A program made the position numbers and the translations under genes. From IMG/VR virus record IMGVR_UViG_3300028831_000595, positions 1 to 46,046 of that record: a stretch of 46,046 bases of DNA; one strand, 5' to 3'. The stretch comes from a virus. A model generated the notes under the pieces. It ran no database searches and was not told the DNA's origin. It saw only the letters and a program-made list of their open reading frames with translations. Every line of letters starts with the position of its first letter. Position 1 is the stretch's first letter. Shown piece after piece: positions 1,189-16,387 of the stretch.

Positions 1189-1375
1189 CGCTCCCCTCCC
1201 CGCCCTCGATCTGCCCGGCGAGCGCATCCCGCAGGAGCAGCGAGGCGTAGCGGCAACAGTCGCAGTCGTCCGGTGCCATGTCCCCCCGGCGCTGAATCAG
1301 CACCGCCAGGTGCAGGATCACGACTCCCTCGGAGGGTGGATCGGGAAGCTCGGGCCAGCGGGGCTCACTTGCCAT
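1181..1375 (-). CDS. Hypothetical protein, 64 aa, CDCC motif
   Basis: ATG at 1375 lies inside the end of the preceding gene (11-bp overlap). The product carries a CDCC cluster near residue 39 and ends in a LAGQIEG block that is also present at the C-terminus of the upstream gene. The shared block is encoded by an identical 24-bp sequence (1202-1225 and 1380-1403). That suggests partial duplication of a gene tail or a selected DNA element. Function unknown. Confidence 0.55.
   Translation of the reverse strand: MASEPRWPELPDPPSEGVVILHLAVLIQRRGDMAPDDCDCCRYASLLLRDALAGQIEGGEGSDA
1202..1225 (+). repeat. 24-bp direct repeat, copy 1
   Basis: This stretch is identical to 1380-1403. Both copies lie near the 3' ends of adjacent minus-strand genes and encode the same LAGQIEG block in the same frame, 178 bp apart. 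Confidence 0.85.
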
Positions 1376-1664
1376 CGCTGCCCTCGATCTGCCCGGCGAG
1401 CGCGAGGATTGCTTTGAGCGAGGTGTCGGCTGACACCACGCTCGCACCAAGTCGGGCGCGGATATCGCCGGCAGTCTCAAACACCTGAAGCGAGTCTGGG
1501 AACGCCACCCGCCCCAGCACGCCCACCACGGCCGCGAAATCCCGCAGGGCGGCGGCGGCCTCCTCCAGCCCGTCGTGGCGGAGTTTGCGCCGTGACGGCG
1601 GTGACACCAGCAGCGCCAGCTTCCGCAGCCGCGCCGGCGTCCACTGATTCCCGGGAGAGCTCAT
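1365..1664 (-). CDS. Hypothetical protein, 99 aa; first gene of the leftward arm
   Basis: ATG at 1664 follows a promoter-like sequence (1673-1702) by only 8 bases, so the message may be leaderless or have a very short leader. The product is basic at the N-terminus (MSSPGNQWTPARLRKLALLV) and then helical, with a central Ala-rich segment. It ends in LAGQIEGSDGK, sharing LAGQIEG with the next gene. The frame stays open upstream into the control region, but that extension is Arg/Ser-rich and does not look coded. No family is recognised. Confidence 0.6.
   Translation of the reverse strand: MSSPGNQWTPARLRKLALLVSPPSRRKLRHDGLEEAAAALRDFAAVVGVLGRVAFPDSLQVFETAGDIRARLGASVVSADTSLKAILALAGQIEGSDGK
1380..1403 (+). 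repeat. 24-bp direct repeat, copy 2
   Basis: Identical to 1202-1225; lies in the 3' end of the 99-aa gene and encodes the same LAGQIEG block. Confidence 0.85.
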
Positions 1665-1672
1665 GGGGCTGG

Positions 1673-1702
1673 ACGGTACCACTGCTCGCACCTGTGCGGC
1701 AA
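1673..1702 (-). promoter_or_regulatory. Candidate leftward promoter
   Basis: On the minus strand, TTGCCG (1702-1697) is separated by 18 bp from TACCGT (1678-1673). The -10 box ends 8 bases before the ATG of the first leftward gene, so initiation would be at or next to the start codon. Leaderless messages are common in actinobacteria. Confidence 0.45.
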
Positions 1703-1981
1703 GCGTTTTGCCGATTTCGCGCCGACCGTGCCTGGACTGTGCCCGGGGTTCAGGTATGAGCGGGCTGCGATTTGTTTCGTGTTCGGCCGGGGTGCTTGCT
1801 CTTTCGCGCGCGCGTGCTGGTCGCCGGGTAAACCTCGAGGCGCCTGCCGCCGGCGCGGGGGGTGCCAGGCGCTTGAGCGCCATGCCGCCGTCGGCGCCGC
1901 CGCACCGGTCTGAGCCCGGGGTCGCGATGAGAATGCGCCGTCTTTGATCCCGGATCAGACCGGAAGGGTTCGGTTTCGGTG

Positions 1982-2015
1982 CGAAACGTGAGCTGCGCCG
2001 AAACGTGAGCCGCGC
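1982..2015 (+). repeat. 17-bp tandem repeat
   Basis: Two adjacent copies of CGAAACGTGAGCYGCGC, differing at one base (1982-1998 and 1999-2015). A shortened relative (GACGTGAGC) follows at about 2032. These could be protein-binding sites in the control region. Confidence 0.7.
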
Positions 2016-2046
2016 AGCTCTCCAGCTGCGCCGACGTGAGCGAGCT

Positions 2047-2064
2047 CTCGCGCGCGCGCGCGAG
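2047..2064. repeat. Alternating CG palindrome
   Basis: CTC(GC)6GAG reads identically on both strands over 18 bp. Alternating CG can melt into Z-form or act as a symmetric binding site. Confidence 0.75.
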
Positions 2065-2146
2065 GCAGCATCGGTCGCCCGCCGGAGTCCGATGTCCGGC
2101 CAGCCAGCGAAGCGGCGAGGCGCCAGCCGGAACAGCGGACGACAAG

Positions 2147-7356: not shown

Positions 7357-8381
7357 GTTTCTACGTGCCCACGCTCGGGCGGGCGATGAGCCAGTCGGAG
7401 GTCTCGACGCTGCTCGCCTGCCCGATGCGTTGGTCCTTCGCCTACGGTGACGTCGCGGGCTTCCCGATCCAACCGCGCGTGACCGCGCTGCGCCTGCGCG
7501 AGGGGCGCGCCTGGGGCGCCGGCATCCAGCAATTCCACACCCGCACCCGCCCCGACCTCGGGCTCGAGGACGCCTGCGGCCGGGCCGCCGCCGCGATGCT
7601 GGCCTCGCTCGACGAGGACGCCGCCCAGATGGAGCGCGAGGGCGCGTTCGACGCCGAGGAGTACGACGTCACCAAGGAGAAGCTGATCGGCGCGCTCGTC
7701 CACTACGCCGCCACGCAGGAGCGGCTCAACCTCGTCGGGTCCGAGGTGGAGCTTGAGCTCCATCACGCCGACGGCTGGACCTACCGCTGCCACATCGACG
7801 GCATCCACCAGGACGAGGACGGCTACCTGTGGATCGTGGAGTTCAAGCTGCGCGGCGCCGGCGCGTTCACGCCGCTGGAGCAGGTGGTGCTCTGGCGCCA
7901 GGTCCGGTGGTACGCGATCGCGCTGGAGGCGAGCAAGGAGCCCGACGGCTTCGACCCGTCCTTCGTGGACACCGACATCGTGCGCGGCGTGATCGTGGAC
8001 GAGCGCCTGAACGACGCGCCCTCGCCCGTGCGCTTCAACAAGAATGGCGACGTCAGCGCCACCCAGTCCTGCACCCTGGAGCAGTACCTCGACGCCTGCG
8101 CCGTGCGCGGCCAGATCCCGCACGAGCCCACGGTGGCCCGGCTGACCGGGAAGGTGTGGTCTCAGCGGCACACGGTGCTGTTCCGGGTGGACGAGCTCGA
8201 CGATGCGTTGCATGAGCTCGAGGCCGCGGCGTCCCTGGTCGCCATCTACGCCGGGCACTCGCTGCGGCCGATCCGAAACCCCGGCCGGCAGTGCGGTACG
8301 TGCGCCTACGCCGAGCTATGTCCCCAACCTCATGATGTAAGGCTGAGAGATGCGTTGTTCAGGGAGGCGGACCATGCCTAA
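7353..8381 (+). CDS. PD-(D/E)XK exonuclease, Cas4/RecB-nuclease-like
   Basis: The 342-aa product has the core of RecB-type nucleases: Asp149 in YRCHIDGI, Glu163 and Lys165 in IVEFKL, and QVRWYA as the QxxxY motif. A Cys near the N-terminus (LLACPMRW, residue 23) and three near the C-terminus (QCGTCAYAELC) match the four-cysteine iron-sulfur cluster of Cas4/AddB-type enzymes. Alongside the Sak4-like ATPase and SSB-like gene it would supply resected ends for recombination. The last 20 residues after AELC look unlike the rest and overlap the HNH gene. They may be altered sequence from that insertion. Confidence 0.88.
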   Translation: MSFYVPTLGRAMSQSEVSTLLACPMRWSFAYGDVAGFPIQPRVTALRLREGRAWGAGIQQFHTRTRPDLGLEDACGRAAAAMLASLDEDAAQMEREGAFDAEEYDVTKEKLIGALVHYAATQERLNLVGSEVELELHHADGWTYRCHIDGIHQDEDGYLWIVEFKLRGAGAFTPLEQVVLWRQVRWYAIALEASKEPDGFDPSFVDTDIVRGVIVDERLNDAPSPVRFNKNGDVSATQSCTLEQYLDACAVRGQIPHEPTVARLTGKVWSQRHTVLFRVDELDDALHELEAAASLVAIYAGHSLRPIRNPGRQCGTCAYAELCPQPHDVRLRDALFREADHA

Positions 8382-8988
8382 GTCCATCCCTAGAACCTGC
8401 GAGATCTGCGGTGCTGCGTTTTTGATCTGGCCCTATGAGGCCAAGAACCCACGCTGGGGACGGTTTTGCTCCCGAGTGTGCGCCAACAGGGGTGTCGGCC
8501 GGGAGAGCGCGGCGAAGATTTCGGCTACTCGTATCGCGAGAAGCAAAGGCACAACCTACATAGGCGGCACTAAAGGTCGTGCGCACCGCCTCGTTGCCGA
8601 AGCCAAGATCGGGAGGCCGCTTCGCACGGGCGAGGTGGTTCACCATGTCAACGGGAACAGACGCGACAATCGGCCAGAGAACATCGAGGTCTTTCCTAGC
8701 CACGCGGAACACATGCGCTGGCACATGGCGAACTCTGATCTCCGAGCGCGGATGTACGCGGGACAAAAGGCCAAGGATGCCTTCAACCGCAAGCCAACGA
8801 TCTGGGGCGAGTCCCATCACAAGGCGAAACTGACCGAGGAACAAGTGCGAGAGATTCGGCGTCGCCGAGCCGCTGGCGAAACGATCATGTCGCTCGGGAG
8901 CGAGTTCGGCATCAGCCACACGACCGTCAGCAACATCGCGAACTTCAAAATCTGGAAACACGTACCCTCGGAAGGAACCCCTGCATGA
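8374..8988 (+). CDS. HNH homing endonuclease 1
   Basis: ATG 8374 follows AGGGAGG and overlaps the exonuclease 3' end. The 204-aa product has an N-terminal zinc ribbon (CEIC, CSRVC), the HNH core VVHHVNGNRRDNRPENIEVF (about residues 87-106), and a C-terminal helix-turn-helix (EEQVREI, FGISHTTVSNI) that would bind the target. Base composition is visibly less GC-rich than in its neighbours, which signals transfer. It sits between two genes expected to be adjacent in a recombination cassette. It is a free-standing mobile gene, not an intron or intein. Confidence 0.92.
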   Translation: MPKSIPRTCEICGAAFLIWPYEAKNPRWGRFCSRVCANRGVGRESAAKISATRIARSKGTTYIGGTKGRAHRLVAEAKIGRPLRTGEVVHHVNGNRRDNRPENIEVFPSHAEHMRWHMANSDLRARMYAGQKAKDAFNRKPTIWGESHHKAKLTEEQVREIRRRRAAGETIMSLGSEFGISHTTVSNIANFKIWKHVPSEGTPA

Positions 8989-11382: not shown

Positions 11383-12813
11383 ATGCGCGCCGTCAGCCTC
11401 TTCAGCGGTGTGGGCGGAATGGATCTGGGCCTTGAGCGCGCCGGCATCACCGTCGTCGCCCAGTGCGAGCAGGACCCCTGGCGGCGAGCCGTCCTCGCCG
11501 CCCGCTTCCCCGGCGTCCCCTGCGCCGCTGACGTTCGTGAAGCGCCGGCGTGCTGGGGAGGACGATCCCTCCCCGGAGTCCTGGGACCAGAGCTCGACGG
11601 CGCCGACGGTGGACGCGGCGGGGCACGGGCCGCGAACGGCGACGCTGGTGGTATCCAGCTCGTCGCAGGGGGGCCACCGTGCCAGGACTTCAGCGTCGCC
11701 GGCCGACGCGCCGGGCTCGCCGGGCTCCGGGGAACACTCTTCTACGAGTTCCTGCGGGTCGCAGATGAGCTTCTCCCTCCCGGGGGATGGGTTCTCATCG
11801 AGAACGTCCCCGGTCTACTCAGTTCCGGTGGGGGACGGGATTTCGCTGCCATCCTCGGGGCGCTGGCCGACATCGGGTTTCGGGACTTGGCCTACCGCAT
11901 TCTGGACTCGCGGTTCTTCGGAGTCCCCCAACGAAGGCGCCGTGTATTCATCCTTGCCCGACGTGCTCGAGGAGAGCGTGCCGCAGAGGTACTGCTTGAG
12001 CTCTCGAGCGGCGGCGGGGATCCTGCGCCGCGCCCAGAAGCGCGGGCGGAAGCTGCCGGAGGCGCTTCGTACAGCGCTCGAGACGCTGGCTGGGATGTCG
12101 TGAGCCGCAAGTGGGCGAAGGACACCGGCGGACCGGCGGGCGATGAGTGCCAGAACCTCGTCGCCGTCTGCGCGACGTGCGCGAACTGCGCTCACGGCTA
12201 CCACCCGGGCTGCGTGGGCTGCTTTGACGATGGCTCGCCCTGCGGGTGCCCGTGCGGACCCGAGACGCCGGCGGCCGACTGGGATGCTGTGAGCGCCACG
12301 CTGAAGGGCCAGCGCGGCAAGGGCGGCGGCGGGATCAGGCCGGAGGAGCAGCTGGTGAGCCCCGCCCTCGTCAGCCGCAGTTCGCGCGGGCACGCGCAGC
12401 CGATGAGCGCTGGCCACCACGTCGACGGCGTGATCGAGGCGGCCTTCATGGCCGAGCAGCAGATCGTGAACGCCCTGACGCGGGACATGGCGGGCGCGGG
12501 CGGCGGCGCGGACGACAACACGGCCCAGGGCGGGCACCTCATCCCCGTCGACTTCCACATGACCCAGGACCCGATCCACTCCAACGGCGGGACGCCGGCG
12601 CTGGGGCGCAAGAGCGGTGGTATGGGCGTGATGGCGAGCGGCGTGCGCCGATTGACGCCGATCGAGGTGGAGCGCCTCCAAGGACTTCCCGACGGCTGGT
12701 CCGCGCCGCCCGGCCTCGACGCCCCGGACTCCCGCCGTTACGCGGCGGTCGGCGATGCGGTCACGGCGAACGTCAGTCAATGGATCGGCGAGCGCCTGCT
12801 GAGGTTCGGATGA
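11383..12813 (+). CDS. C5-cytosine DNA methyltransferase
   Basis: The 476-aa product has the ordered motifs of the family: I FSGVGGMDLG (7-16), IV GGPPCQDFS with catalytic Cys100, VI ENVPG (140-144), VIII QRRRRVF (183-189), and IX-X RLTPIEVERLQGLPDGW and GDAVTANV at the end. It would methylate cytosine in phage DNA against host restriction. Two oddities: about 35 extra Gly/Ala-rich residues lie between motifs II and IV (55-90), and the variable target-recognition region holds a dense Cys cluster (CATCANCAHGYHPGC, then CGCPCG) suggesting a metal site. The stop overlaps the RuvC-like ATG. Confidence 0.95.
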   Translation: MRAVSLFSGVGGMDLGLERAGITVVAQCEQDPWRRAVLAARFPGVPCAADVREAPACWGGRSLPGVLGPELDGADGGRGGARAANGDAGGIQLVAGGPPCQDFSVAGRRAGLAGLRGTLFYEFLRVADELLPPGGWVLIENVPGLLSSGGGRDFAAILGALADIGFRDLAYRILDSRFFGVPQRRRRVFILARRARGERAAEVLLELSSGGGDPAPRPEARAEAAGGASYSARDAGWDVVSRKWAKDTGGPAGDECQNLVAVCATCANCAHGYHPGCVGCFDDGSPCGCPCGPETPAADWDAVSATLKGQRGKGGGGIRPEEQLVSPALVSRSSRGHAQPMSAGHHVDGVIEAAFMAEQQIVNALTRDMAGAGGGADDNTAQGGHLIPVDFHMTQDPIHSNGGTPALGRKSGGMGVMASGVRRLTPIEVERLQGLPDGWSAPPGLDAPDSRRYAAVGDAVTANVSQWIGERLLRFG

Positions 12814-13304
12814 GCACCATCGTTCTCGGGCTCGATATCCAGCTCACCCGCGTCGGCTACGGCGTCTGCCGGGCGACCGACGGCTCGCCCGTGGACTGCG
12901 GCTGCATCGCCCCGCTCTCGCGCTCGAGCCCGGGCGACCACCTGGCCCAGATCTTCGTGGATCTGGACTGGCAGTACCGCCCGCACCGCATCATCGCGGT
13001 CTACGTCGAGGCGCCGCACGTCGGCCTTGACCGCCGGCTCGCGGTCGAGCACGCGATGGTGATCGGCCGCGCACTCCAGCAGGCAGAGCGCACCTGGCCC
13101 GAGGCCGCGGTGGAGCTCGTTCCGCCGCAGGTTTGGAAGAAGCGGGTCGGGCTGCCCGGGAACGCGAAGAAGGATCAGGTCGCGACCTGGGCGCGGGCCG
13201 CGGGCTTCGAGCACGCCTCGCAGGACGCATTAGATGCTGCGGCCGTTGCTGTAGCAGGCTATCTACTCAATCAAGAGGTGGTGAGAATTGCAGAATTGCG
13301 GTAG
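12810..13304 (+). CDS. RuvC-like Holliday junction resolvase
   Basis: The 164-aa product fits the RuvC fold: Asp9 in LGLDIQLTRVGYGV, Glu67 in YVEAPH, and Asp139/Asp142 in SQDALDAAAV, with a basic WKKRVGLPGNAKKDQ segment before the last motif. It would resolve branched replication or recombination intermediates before packaging. The last 25 or so codons switch to codons rare elsewhere here (TTA, GTA, CTA, TAT). The 3' end overlaps the following HNH gene by 17 bp, as if the tail had been co-converted with it. Confidence 0.88.
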   Translation: MSTIVLGLDIQLTRVGYGVCRATDGSPVDCGCIAPLSRSSPGDHLAQIFVDLDWQYRPHRIIAVYVEAPHVGLDRRLAVEHAMVIGRALQQAERTWPEAAVELVPPQVWKKRVGLPGNAKKDQVATWARAAGFEHASQDALDAAAVAVAGYLLNQEVVRIAELR

Positions 13305-13896
13305 TCGATGGTCCGACGATGACGACCAAGCTCTCTCAGTGCTCATCGCGAGCGGCACCTCGGCCGCTGAAGTGGCGACTGTGATGGGTCGGTCGCTGGA
13401 TAGCGTCTACAGTCGTGCGAGTCGCGTGCTTGGGATCTCATGGAAGCGGGCTCGGCTCGCGCCGGAACTCGTCCAAGCGAGATTCCACTCATGGACTGAG
13501 AGGCGTGGCGATTGTCTGTGGTGGACCGGCACCACTTGGCCCAATGGCTACGGAATGTTCTCAATCAAGAACAGGGCGCATCTTGCACATCGGTGCGCTT
13601 GGGAATTCAAGCATGGCCGTCCTGCTCCCGATCTGTTTGTTTGCCACCACTGCGACAACAAGCTCTGTGTGGATCCCGACCACCTGTTTCTTGGAACACA
13701 CTCCGACAACATGCGTGACATGCACGCGAAGGGGCGCGGAATCTCTGGCGAGAATCACCCTTGGGCGAAGCTGTCGGATGAGGAGGTAGCCGCGATCAGG
13801 GCAGCTAGAGGAACACAACGCCAGATCGCCGAAGCATTTGGGATCAGCCAGGGGCACGTCTCTCGGCTCAAGATGGGGCAGCAGCGAGCGGCGTGA
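13288..13896 (+). CDS. HNH homing endonuclease 2
   Basis: TTG 13288 is chosen because AGAGGTGG lies just upstream. The 202-aa product has an N-terminal SANT/HTH-like helix set (DQALSVLIASGTSAAEVATV), a WWTGTTWPNGYG lead-in, the HNH core VCHHCDNKLCVDPDHLFLGT and NMRDMHAKGRG. A C-terminal helix-turn-helix follows (TQRQIAEAFGISQGHVSRLK). Composition is less GC-rich than in its neighbours. It lies between the RuvC-like and primase-like genes as a free-standing mobile gene; its stop overlaps the next GTG. Confidence 0.92.
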   Translation: MQNCGSRWSDDDDQALSVLIASGTSAAEVATVMGRSLDSVYSRASRVLGISWKRARLAPELVQARFHSWTERRGDCLWWTGTTWPNGYGMFSIKNRAHLAHRCAWEFKHGRPAPDLFVCHHCDNKLCVDPDHLFLGTHSDNMRDMHAKGRGISGENHPWAKLSDEEVAAIRAARGTQRQIAEAFGISQGHVSRLKMGQQRAA

Positions 13897-14315
13897 GTTA
13901 TCACCTCACCCACGACCTCGCGCACGACGCCTACCAGCTGGCCGTCCTACGCGAGGTGGGTCGCGACCACCTCATCGACTCCCTGACCGATCCACCGCCC
14001 AAGGCACCGCTCAAGATCGCGGCGGTGCCGATCGCGTGGCAGCCGCACGGCGGCACGCCCTACGGCCGCAAGGTGCTCTCGTCGCTGGTCGAGCGCGTGG
14101 CGGCCTGCGAGTTCCCGGGCCGCAACGAGTTCCTGAATCGCATGGCCTTCCTCGCCGGCGGCTACGTCGCCTCCGGGCAGATCGATCGCGACCTGACCAT
14201 CCGCGCCCTCATCACCGCCGCCCGCGCCTGCGGGCTGGAGATGGCGGAAGCCGTCTCGACGGTCGCCCGCGCGCTTCGCAAGGGCATGGAGCGCCCGATC
14301 TACCCGCCCGCCTGA
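13893..14315 (+). CDS. Primase C-terminal-like domain protein
   Basis: GTG 13893 overlaps the HNH stop. The C-terminal 75 residues of the 140-aa product (GRNEFLNRMAFLAGGYVASG, then DLTIRALITAARACGL and VARALRKGMERP) look like the helical domain that links primase-polymerase and helicase parts in many actinophage replication proteins. No catalytic primase residues are present. It may be a split-off module acting with the helicase-like ATPase encoded at 16387. This assignment rests on pattern memory and is moderate. Confidence 0.6.
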   Translation: MSYHLTHDLAHDAYQLAVLREVGRDHLIDSLTDPPPKAPLKIAAVPIAWQPHGGTPYGRKVLSSLVERVAACEFPGRNEFLNRMAFLAGGYVASGQIDRDLTIRALITAARACGLEMAEAVSTVARALRKGMERPIYPPA

Positions 14316-16387
14316 TGCTGCGGCCCTGGCTCGACGACGGCGACGTGCGGCTCTACGCGGGCGATTGCGTCGAGGTCATGCGCGAGCTGGCGGCCGAGAG
14401 CGTGGATGCCATCTGCACAGATCCTCCGTATGGCTGGCGCTTCATGGGCAAGGCGTGGGACGGCGCGCAGATCGAGGAGCACGCGCGTCAGGATGCCGAG
14501 CGGCGTCGCACGCTCGGACCCCACTCACCCACGCGTCCAGGTCGTGAGACACCGCGCTCGGCGTCGGCGTTCGGCAGCGCCGCCGGGCAGGCGGGCGCCT
14601 ACGACGAGTCGCTGACCGGCAACCGCGCGTTCCAAGCATGGTGCGAGACGTGGGCGCGCGAGGCCCTGCGCATCCTGAAGCCCGGCGGCCACCTGCTGAG
14701 CTTCTGCGGGCCCCGGACCTATCACCGCATGGCGTGCGCCATCGAGGACGCCGGGTTCGAGGTTCGCGACTCGCTGCACTGGCTCTACGGGTCGGGCTTC
14801 CCGAAGTCGCTGGATGTGAGCAAGGCGATTGATGAGCACCGCTTCCGCGAATGGCTAGATGAACACCCCGCCGAGCAGGCGCGGCTCGCCGCTGCCCGCG
14901 ACGCGATCAGGGAGGCCGTCGACGCCCAAGCCGCGCAGCTTGCCTACGACGAAATCGAGACGGCGCTGCGGCGCGAGGCCGGTGCGGAGCGAAAGGCCCT
15001 GGGGCCGCCCACGGGGATCGGTAACCGCGACCCGAAGCGACACGCCGTCGAGCCTGGGTACGACGGTGGGCACGGGAACCGATGGGCCGCGATGGTCACC
15101 GCCCCCGCGACCCCCGAGGCCGCCGCGTGGCAGGGCTGGGGCACGGCGCTGAAGCCCGCCCACGAGCCGATCGTGCTCGCGCGCAAGCCGCTCGCGGAGC
15201 GCACCGTGGCCCGGCAGGTGTTGGCGACCGGTACCGGCGGGTTGAACGTTGACGGGACGAGGGTGGGGGCGACGGTCGAGACGTGGCCCTCATCGCGGGG
15301 GCCGAACACCGGACGCGCGATGGCAGGCGGTGTGATGGCGGCGCGGGATACCGGCGACACGCCCGCCGGCCGCTGGCCCCCCAACTGCGTCTGGACCCAC
15401 GACTGGCGGTGCGAGGAGGGCGATGCCTGCGCGCCGGCAGCTAGATGCGTCTCTCCCGATGATGCAGCCGAGTGTGCTCGGCTCTTGACATCACTTCTAA
15501 ATTCTCTAGCCGATTGTCCGTCTTGTCACCGTTTTTGTGATGGACGATCTCGTCTCGTCCTAGAGGTCGCCCAAGAGCTACCTCAACTACCACGCGGTGC
15601 TGTCGTCGGCGGGAGTTTTTCCCTACGAGGGACACTACAACGTATCCACGATCGTCTTGTCCGATCCCGACCCAGCGCGGATGATTCGGCCCAATGCTCC
15701 ATCGTTGGGAGCATTGGGGAGAGCAGAAGCGCTCTCGTCTCCCGCCATGGAGCGGTGCCCGAAACGGCTTCTGACACTGCTCGCACGGGATCGTCGGCAC
15801 AGCCGAGGCACGCGCCAAATGGTGGCAAGCTAGAGAGCAGAACTTCCGCCGACGCTTATAGCTGTGGAACTTCTGACCGCAATGGGCACATGGCCGAGGC
15901 GGTCCGCCTTCTGATGGATTGGTCATCGGTACAAATTGTACCACTGATCTGTCCCGTGGCGGAGCTTGACCGGCAGAGCGGGGTGCTGACGAGTGGAACG
16001 GGCGCCGTCAAGCGCGCGACCGCGAGCGGTTCACGGGGGAACGCCTACGGGGTTGAGAACCGGCCTGCAGGCACACCGTCGGTCGAATACGGCGACACCG
16101 GCGGCGCCTCACGCTTCTTCCCGACCTTCCGCTACGAGGCGAAGGCGAGCGGGGCCGACCGCGGAGACGGCAACCATCACCCCACGGTGAAGCCGCTGGC
16201 GCTGATGCGGTGGCTTGTGCGCCTCGTCACCCCGCCCGGCGGACTGGTGCTCGACCCGTTCGCCGGCAGTGGGACAACGGGGCTCGCAGCGCGACAGGAG
16301 GGGATGCGCGCCATCCTGATCGAGCGCGAGGCCGAGTATTTGGCGATGGCCGCGCACCGGCTGCGGCAGCTCTCCCTCTTTGCCTGA
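14315..16387 (+). CDS. DPPY-type DNA methyltransferase with an internal antisense HNH gene
   Basis: The 690-aa frame starts by TGATG overlap. It has ICTDPPYGWRF (catalytic DPPY, 36-39) at the N-terminus and DPFAGSGTTGLAA (SAM-binding motif I, about 647-659) at the C-terminus. This is the beta-class order of adenine-N6 or cytosine-N4 enzymes. Conserved flanks WPPNCVWTHDWRCEEGDAC and CPVAELDRQSGVLTSG, normally close together in such proteins, are separated by about 168 residues (376-544). Those residues are the reverse complement of an HNH gene. The frame nevertheless stays open, so the enzyme may carry this insert and remain functional. Confidence 0.9.
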   Translation: MLRPWLDDGDVRLYAGDCVEVMRELAAESVDAICTDPPYGWRFMGKAWDGAQIEEHARQDAERRRTLGPHSPTRPGRETPRSASAFGSAAGQAGAYDESLTGNRAFQAWCETWAREALRILKPGGHLLSFCGPRTYHRMACAIEDAGFEVRDSLHWLYGSGFPKSLDVSKAIDEHRFREWLDEHPAEQARLAAARDAIREAVDAQAAQLAYDEIETALRREAGAERKALGPPTGIGNRDPKRHAVEPGYDGGHGNRWAAMVTAPATPEAAAWQGWGTALKPAHEPIVLARKPLAERTVARQVLATGTGGLNVDGTRVGATVETWPSSRGPNTGRAMAGGVMAARDTGDTPAGRWPPNCVWTHDWRCEEGDACAPAARCVSPDDAAECARLLTSLLNSLADCPSCHRFCDGRSRLVLEVAQELPQLPRGAVVGGSFSLRGTLQRIHDRLVRSRPSADDSAQCSIVGSIGESRSALVSRHGAVPETASDTARTGSSAQPRHAPNGGKLESRTSADAYSCGTSDRNGHMAEAVRLLMDWSSVQIVPLICPVAELDRQSGVLTSGTGAVKRATASGSRGNAYGVENRPAGTPSVEYGDTGGASRFFPTFRYEAKASGADRGDGNHHPTVKPLALMRWLVRLVTPPGGLVLDPFAGSGTTGLAARQEGMRAILIEREAEYLAMAAHRLRQLSLFA
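15441..15926 (-). CDS. HNH homing endonuclease 3, antisense inside the methyltransferase gene
   Basis: The 161-aa product has two zinc ribbons (CAHC...CSLAC and CEQC...CSPQC), then a beta region (DDRGYVVVSLVGKNSRRRQH) and the HNH core IVHHKNGDKTDNRLENLEVM (about residues 128-147). ATG 15926 is used; an upstream GTG at 15944 would add VQFVP and take in a palindrome (15928-15942). Composition is less GC-rich than the flanking methyltransferase. Since HNH genes of this kind are mobile, the whole 15.44-15.95 kb block is best read as an insertion that preserved the host frame. Confidence 0.9.
   Translation of the reverse strand: MTNPSEGGPPRPCAHCGQKFHSYKRRRKFCSLACHHLARASAVPTIPCEQCQKPFRAPLHGGRRERFCSPQCSQRWSIGPNHPRWVGIGQDDRGYVVVSLVGKNSRRRQHRVVVEVALGRPLGRDEIVHHKNGDKTDNRLENLEVMSRAEHTRLHHRERRI
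15928..15942. repeat. Palindrome at the HNH-3 start
   Basis: GGTACAA and TTGTACC are separated by a single A. It lies at the junction of the HNH gene with methyltransferase sequence, so it could be an operator for the HNH gene or part of the insertion boundary. Confidence 0.6.

Follow-up and report, generated by a model that had tools for sequence, protein, structure and literature searches.

The locus described here raises the question of how a complete HNH endonuclease gene came to lie on the minus strand of a plus-strand DNA methyltransferase gene whose frame is nevertheless open from end to end. It comes from a metagenomic viral contig, and the whole stretch analysed, 46,046 nucleotides, is referred to as the window. 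The initial annotation offered two answers, namely a homing insertion whose reverse complement became tolerated residues of the methyltransferase, or removal of the block at the RNA level. Our analysis indicates that an HNH homing gene has probably inserted backwards in the methyltransferase gene, with its reverse complement translated as a tolerated loop.

The methyltransferase frame runs on the plus strand from an ATG at 14315 to a stop codon ending at 16387 (690 codons, no internal stop) and stays open across the insert. The predicted 690-aa protein is a beta-class enzyme of the N6-adenine/N4-cytosine type and matches the Pfam family N6_N4_Mtase (E = 3e-33). Both catalytic ends, DPPY (residues 36–39) and DPFAGSGTT, are intact. 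Foldseek search with the model of the whole frame returned CcrM and M.BceJIV as matches, and in the AlphaFold prediction the core has pLDDT values of 80–98 and the insert mostly falls below 70. Elsewhere in the window there are two sense, free-standing HNH-type genes, one at 13288–13896 (+), about 0.4 kb upstream of the methyltransferase, with HNH_3 and helix-turn-helix domains, and the other at 8347–8985 (+). A second DNA methyltransferase gene at 11383–12813 (+; PHROG DNA methyltransferase) contains a long internal segment when compared with the profile, and no HNH gene was detected within it.

The HNH gene occupies 15441–15944 on the minus strand and encodes 167 aa from a GTG start to a TAG stop. 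Its HNH_3 catalytic domain (HNH residues 115–159, 15468–15602 on the minus strand), located by Pfam and by alignment, scores 48.6 bits against a curated cut-off of 24.8 (E = 6e-13). Residues H116, H135–H136, N144, N148 and H157 of the domain are invariant in the alignment, and two CxxC...CxxxC pairs precede it. No significant hit was obtained by Foldseek search with the HNH model, so the assignment rests on the Pfam match and the conserved residues. The open reading frames and Pfam matches thus bear out the initial description of a complete minus-strand HNH gene within a 690-codon plus-strand frame with DPPY and DPFAGSGTT intact. An alternative ATG start (MTNPSEGG..., 15441–15926, minus strand) was also found. 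At the start of the gene lies the palindrome GGTACAAATTGTACC (15928–15942), whose minus-strand reading contains TACAAT, 8 nt before the HNH ATG, a possible -10 box of a putative HNH promoter. Scanning for sigma-70 promoters at the HNH start revealed no sigma-70 pair, and no clear Shine–Dalgarno sequence was found there. Purine-rich Shine–Dalgarno-like sequences were seen by eye ahead of the antisense starts in loci L080 and L298, which are described below.

Alignment to uninterrupted relatives, as the initial annotation had suggested, revealed that the HNH gene is carried by an insert of 513 bp (15437–15949), which corresponds to 171 host-frame codons, is divisible by three in length and makes up methyltransferase residues 375–545. 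The edges, ...GDACAP (residue 374) and CPVAELD (residue 546), could be placed to about one codon, so that the site of insertion lies after GRWP, at CAP/CPVAELD. In the closest subfamily of uninterrupted relatives there are only one or two residues where the insert has 171 codons, and in the subfamily nearest in local sequence the site reads H...C...C.(.)GCPVAEL. A relative that lacks the HNH gene and keeps the 168-residue segment would have pointed to an accidental HNH reading; the segment is absent from every aligned relative. Furthermore, the GC content of the insert is 0.58, versus 0.71–0.73 in the flanks. The HNH open reading frame nearly fills the insert, with the GTG start 5 bp and the TAG stop 4 bp inside its edges, leaving about 9 of the 513 bp uncovered. 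All empty sites seen belong to distant relatives (about 50% identity). No near-identical copy of the element was found in the phage collection by blastn, and tblastn with the HNH protein obtained only HNH proteins below 60% identity from phages and four weak matches from plasmids. A scan of viral contigs with the same protein yielded distant HNH genes only and no near relative of the element, and a search through the neighbouring helicase-like gene found no close kin.

The reverse complement of the HNH gene has no stop codon in the host frame, while the other two antisense phases have 6 and 6–7 stops, counts that shift by one depending on where the gene ends are cut. The earlier observation of a stop-free, in-phase antisense strand therefore holds (0 stops over 513 bp). 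When codons were shuffled, the probability of an open host frame was low (P(0) = 0.005), but it rose to about 0.1 when shuffling was restricted to synonymous codons; much of the openness is due to the HNH protein sequence rather than to codon choice. Taken by itself, the open frame at 15437–15949 is modest evidence, suggestive only. Given the single-locus value of about 0.1, the excess over chance has to come from a set of cases.

A set of this kind was assembled by fetching loci with methyltransferase queries, and some with HNH queries, and by looking for nuclease genes between the N and C cores. In this non-random sample, 305 distinct methyltransferase genes have both cores, and 31 of them carry a nested nuclease gene matching HNH profiles; these represent fewer than 31 independent events because census loci are related or were brought in through nuclease-linked queries (HNH matches brought in L139, L298–L300 and the mycobacteriophage loci, the last of which form a single related group, and L356–L435 were retrieved with a query derived from a nuclease-bearing gene). 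Of the 31 genes, 30 have an open host frame, with 25 nucleases in the sense orientation out of frame and five antisense; one host frame is broken (L392), and none of the nucleases is in frame. Among the methyltransferase genes without a nested nuclease, 6 of 274 are broken. The insertion sites differ (after GFPK, at ALKP/EPI, after CRV, after GRWP, before HPTVKP and before VVLDPF); they were read by eye from the translations, automatic placement by hmmalign being unreliable. In many cases the codon shuffle gave P(0) < 0.001, for example in L218, L029, L299, L300 and L357–L360. One contig, L300, has two different methyltransferase genes with a nested HNH gene in each, one sense and one antisense.

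The five antisense members of the census are the present locus (15441–15944), L050, L298, the second methyltransferase of L300, whose HNH protein matches PDB 5h0m at 4e-8, and L396, which was counted there because its zinc-finger part matched an HNH profile. Since the L396 nuclease is of the Vsr/DUF559 type and not HNH, it was left out of the antisense HNH cases proper, six in number, which comprise four in methyltransferases and two in intein-like inserts (L070 and L080) and all share one common antisense phase. In L070 (1805–4189, minus strand) the host is a terminase gene and in L080 (1871–3724, minus strand) a clamp-loader gene; in both, the intein-like insert, identified by motif and weak profile, carries an antisense HNH gene and the host reading frame remains open. 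There, 13.8 and 9.3 host-frame stops were expected, respectively, and none was seen. As a control, none of 81 free-standing HNH genes is open in the shared antisense phase, where such genes have 7.8 stops on average (4.6 in the GC-matched set). The antisense insertion of HNH genes with an open host frame thus recurs in other phages.

The L396 nuclease gene (1352–2146, minus strand) is nested antisense in an open methyltransferase frame at another site. It contains no TTA, CTA or TCA codons among its 18 Leu and 12 Ser codons, and its phase, which differs from that of the HNH cases, is often left open by free-standing genes. L064, L083 and L107 also have long antisense frames over their HNH genes, but no host protein could be recognised in these frames; they probably reflect chance and were excluded. 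The candidate L140 (1660–2517, minus strand) of phage Fishburne was also rejected as an antisense HNH case, its nuclease being of the Vsr/DUF559 type. This gene lies between two methyltransferase pieces, and its strand seems to have been misread in the annotation, which gives a plus-strand 'hypothetical protein', gp58.

L050 and L298 carry homologous antisense inserts at one site, and their comparison revealed what selection maintains. The HNH proteins are identical at 0.58 of their residues, and identities at the three codon positions are 0.70, 0.72 and 0.42. The host-frame translations have an identity of 0.33, no better than most non-coding frames, and neither contains a stop (0/0). This shows purifying selection on the HNH protein and not on the host-frame residues. 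Because the host frame is only 33% identical and yet stop-free, it appears to be constrained only to stay open.

Among the alternatives, the one that survives best is that the host frame is open by chance and that the insert has inactivated the methyltransferase, with decay yet to come. The synonymous-shuffle P-value of about 0.1 at 15437–15949 and the low-confidence AlphaFold fold of the insert are compatible with this, and the methylase bearing the ShiLan domain, discussed below, is reported to be dispensable in phages (PMC11855218). However, 30 of 31 inserts leave the host frame open, including cases with 6–14 expected stops, and the L050 and L298 inserts still have no host-frame stops at 58% HNH identity, so that we regard it as unlikely.

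Much less probable is an unrecognised intron, removed at the RNA level, with the HNH gene as its passenger. Group I introns commonly carry HNH genes. However, an Rfam search for group I or group II intron structure gave no match at E up to 1, and the 9 bp or so left outside the open reading frame, which itself lies on the opposite strand, means that no ribozyme fits in an insert that is almost wholly HNH coding sequence. An intron, moreover, needs no open host frame. The RNA-level removal suggested in the initial annotation is not upheld on these grounds.

Just as improbable is protein-level self-splicing by an unusual intein with the HNH gene nested within it, an arrangement for which intein-like inserts with nested out-of-frame HNH genes at other loci (L109, L070, L080, L393 and L408) are a precedent. 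In L109/L112 (1341–3638, plus strand), and likewise in L393 and L408, an intein or intein-like insert has an HNH gene on the same strand in another frame; L109 carries both intein terminal profiles (TIGR01445 and TIGR01443), which is strong evidence for an intein. At the present locus, the host-frame ends of the insert (AARCVSP... and ...VQIVPLI|C) are without intein blocks or a terminal His-Asn, no intein profile from Pfam or NCBIfam was detected in the 690-aa protein, and the HNH open reading frame fills the insert. Finally, no point in favour was found for an accidental minus-strand HNH reading over a domain of 171 residues that is native to the methyltransferase; this proposal is already contradicted by the HNH_3 match (6e-13) with its CxxC pairs and catalytic residues, by the absence of the 171 residues from all aligned relatives and by the GC drop to 0.58.

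The reading we prefer is therefore a backward homing insertion, of which the initial annotation had proposed the outline. The insertion, the intact HNH motifs, the open host frame and the recurrence in other phages are shown, and translation and homing belong to the following model. A homing endonuclease gene with neither intron nor intein would have entered a surface loop of the methyltransferase backwards. Its reverse complement, in the sole antisense phase free of stops, would be read as about 171 extra residues of a long protein that presumably still methylates DNA, and these residues would sit where a putative zinc knuckle of the enzyme has a variable loop. A separate start on the minus strand would yield the HNH protein, whose cleavage of uninterrupted alleles at the insertion site would be followed by repair that copies the carrier allele and spreads the element. 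Selection on the methyltransferase would retain only those versions of the element that leave the host frame open.

The cysteines around the inserts may have a part in this. Uninterrupted relatives conserve the motif H-x(3-4)-C-x(3-5)-C-x3-C, and the insert at 15437–15949 splits it, leaving the left part of the putative knuckle (C358/H362, C366 and C372; 15386–15436, plus strand) on one side and the last cysteine (C546; 15950–15952, plus strand) on the other. At the GFPK-to-ALKP site, 6 of 7 HNH-bearing genes have host-frame cysteine pairs on either side of the insert versus none of the others, counting the loci fetched before the ribbon-based query; with later loci included the figures are 12/13 versus 0/244, which are biased because that query itself contained cysteines. 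Judging from the sequences, such flanking cysteines could bind zinc and close off the translated loop.

We tentatively suggest, as a reading with nearly even prospects, a general class of homing genes that lie in any non-host frame on either strand of the gene they invade, with members in methyltransferases and inteins, the host frame being kept stop-free by selection, and in many of which cysteine pairs could tie off the nonsense loop with zinc. If so, neither an intron nor an intein is required for a mobile gene to invade a coding sequence backwards, since the host needs only a stop-free reverse complement. These loci would then amount to an experiment on antisense gene overlap that nature has run repeatedly, with one strand evolving as an enzyme and the other only staying readable. 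Annotation would conceal such nucleases within long 'methyltransferases' and inteins, and the host proteins should bear large low-complexity loops, tolerance of which is directly testable.

Several known systems resemble this locus in part. The mobE gene, reportedly described by Friedrich et al. in 2007, lies inside the ribonucleotide reductase gene of Aeromonas phage Aeh1; like the present gene it is a free-standing HNH homing gene in an essential-type gene whose function is kept, but its insertion divides the reductase into two polypeptides, while the methyltransferase at 14315–16387 is one frame throughout. In the fission of mitochondrial cox2, an HNH-like nuclease gene has been proposed as the cause of an insertion with antiparallel overlapping open reading frames (PMC5374615); both features are shared, but that case concerns animal mitochondria and a host gene split in two. 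The hidden HNH of Pacc40 gp60 is likewise an HNH-like gene lying out of frame within the methylase gene of a phage, but in another methylase family, at another site and, as described, on the sense strand (PMC11855218).

The closest parallel is the ShiLan domain (PMC11855218; earlier PMC9957025), an HNH gene inserted in the sense orientation and out of frame within a mycobacteriophage methylase whose own frame stays open; PMC11855218 argues against both an intron and an intein there, and L059 and L224–L229 of our census belong to this group. In ShiLan and in the insert at 15437–15949 alike, an HNH bearing CxxC pairs of the zinc-finger kind lies within a methyltransferase of the same broad family, the host frame is open with no intron or intein detected, and the host-frame translation of the insert is modelled, at low confidence, as loops. 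In both, the insert is almost only the HNH open reading frame (start 18 bp in and stop within the last 4 bases in ShiLan; 5 bp and 4 bp here). They differ in strand, the ShiLan HNH being on that of the methylase in another frame and the HNH at 15441–15944 on the opposite one, and in site, between ALKP and EPIVVARKP for ShiLan and after GRWP (CAP/CPVAELD) here. The text of PMC11855218 nowhere refers to an antisense, opposite or reverse orientation, and no report of the antisense form was found in the literature searched; preprint 10.1101/2025.01.02.630785 (from the ShiLan group, on intein architecture) might cover nested HNH genes in inteins. We claim as new the antisense orientation, the site and the recurrence; because the sense out-of-frame form is already published (PMC11855218), the locus is a variant of ShiLan-like insertion and not a new kind.
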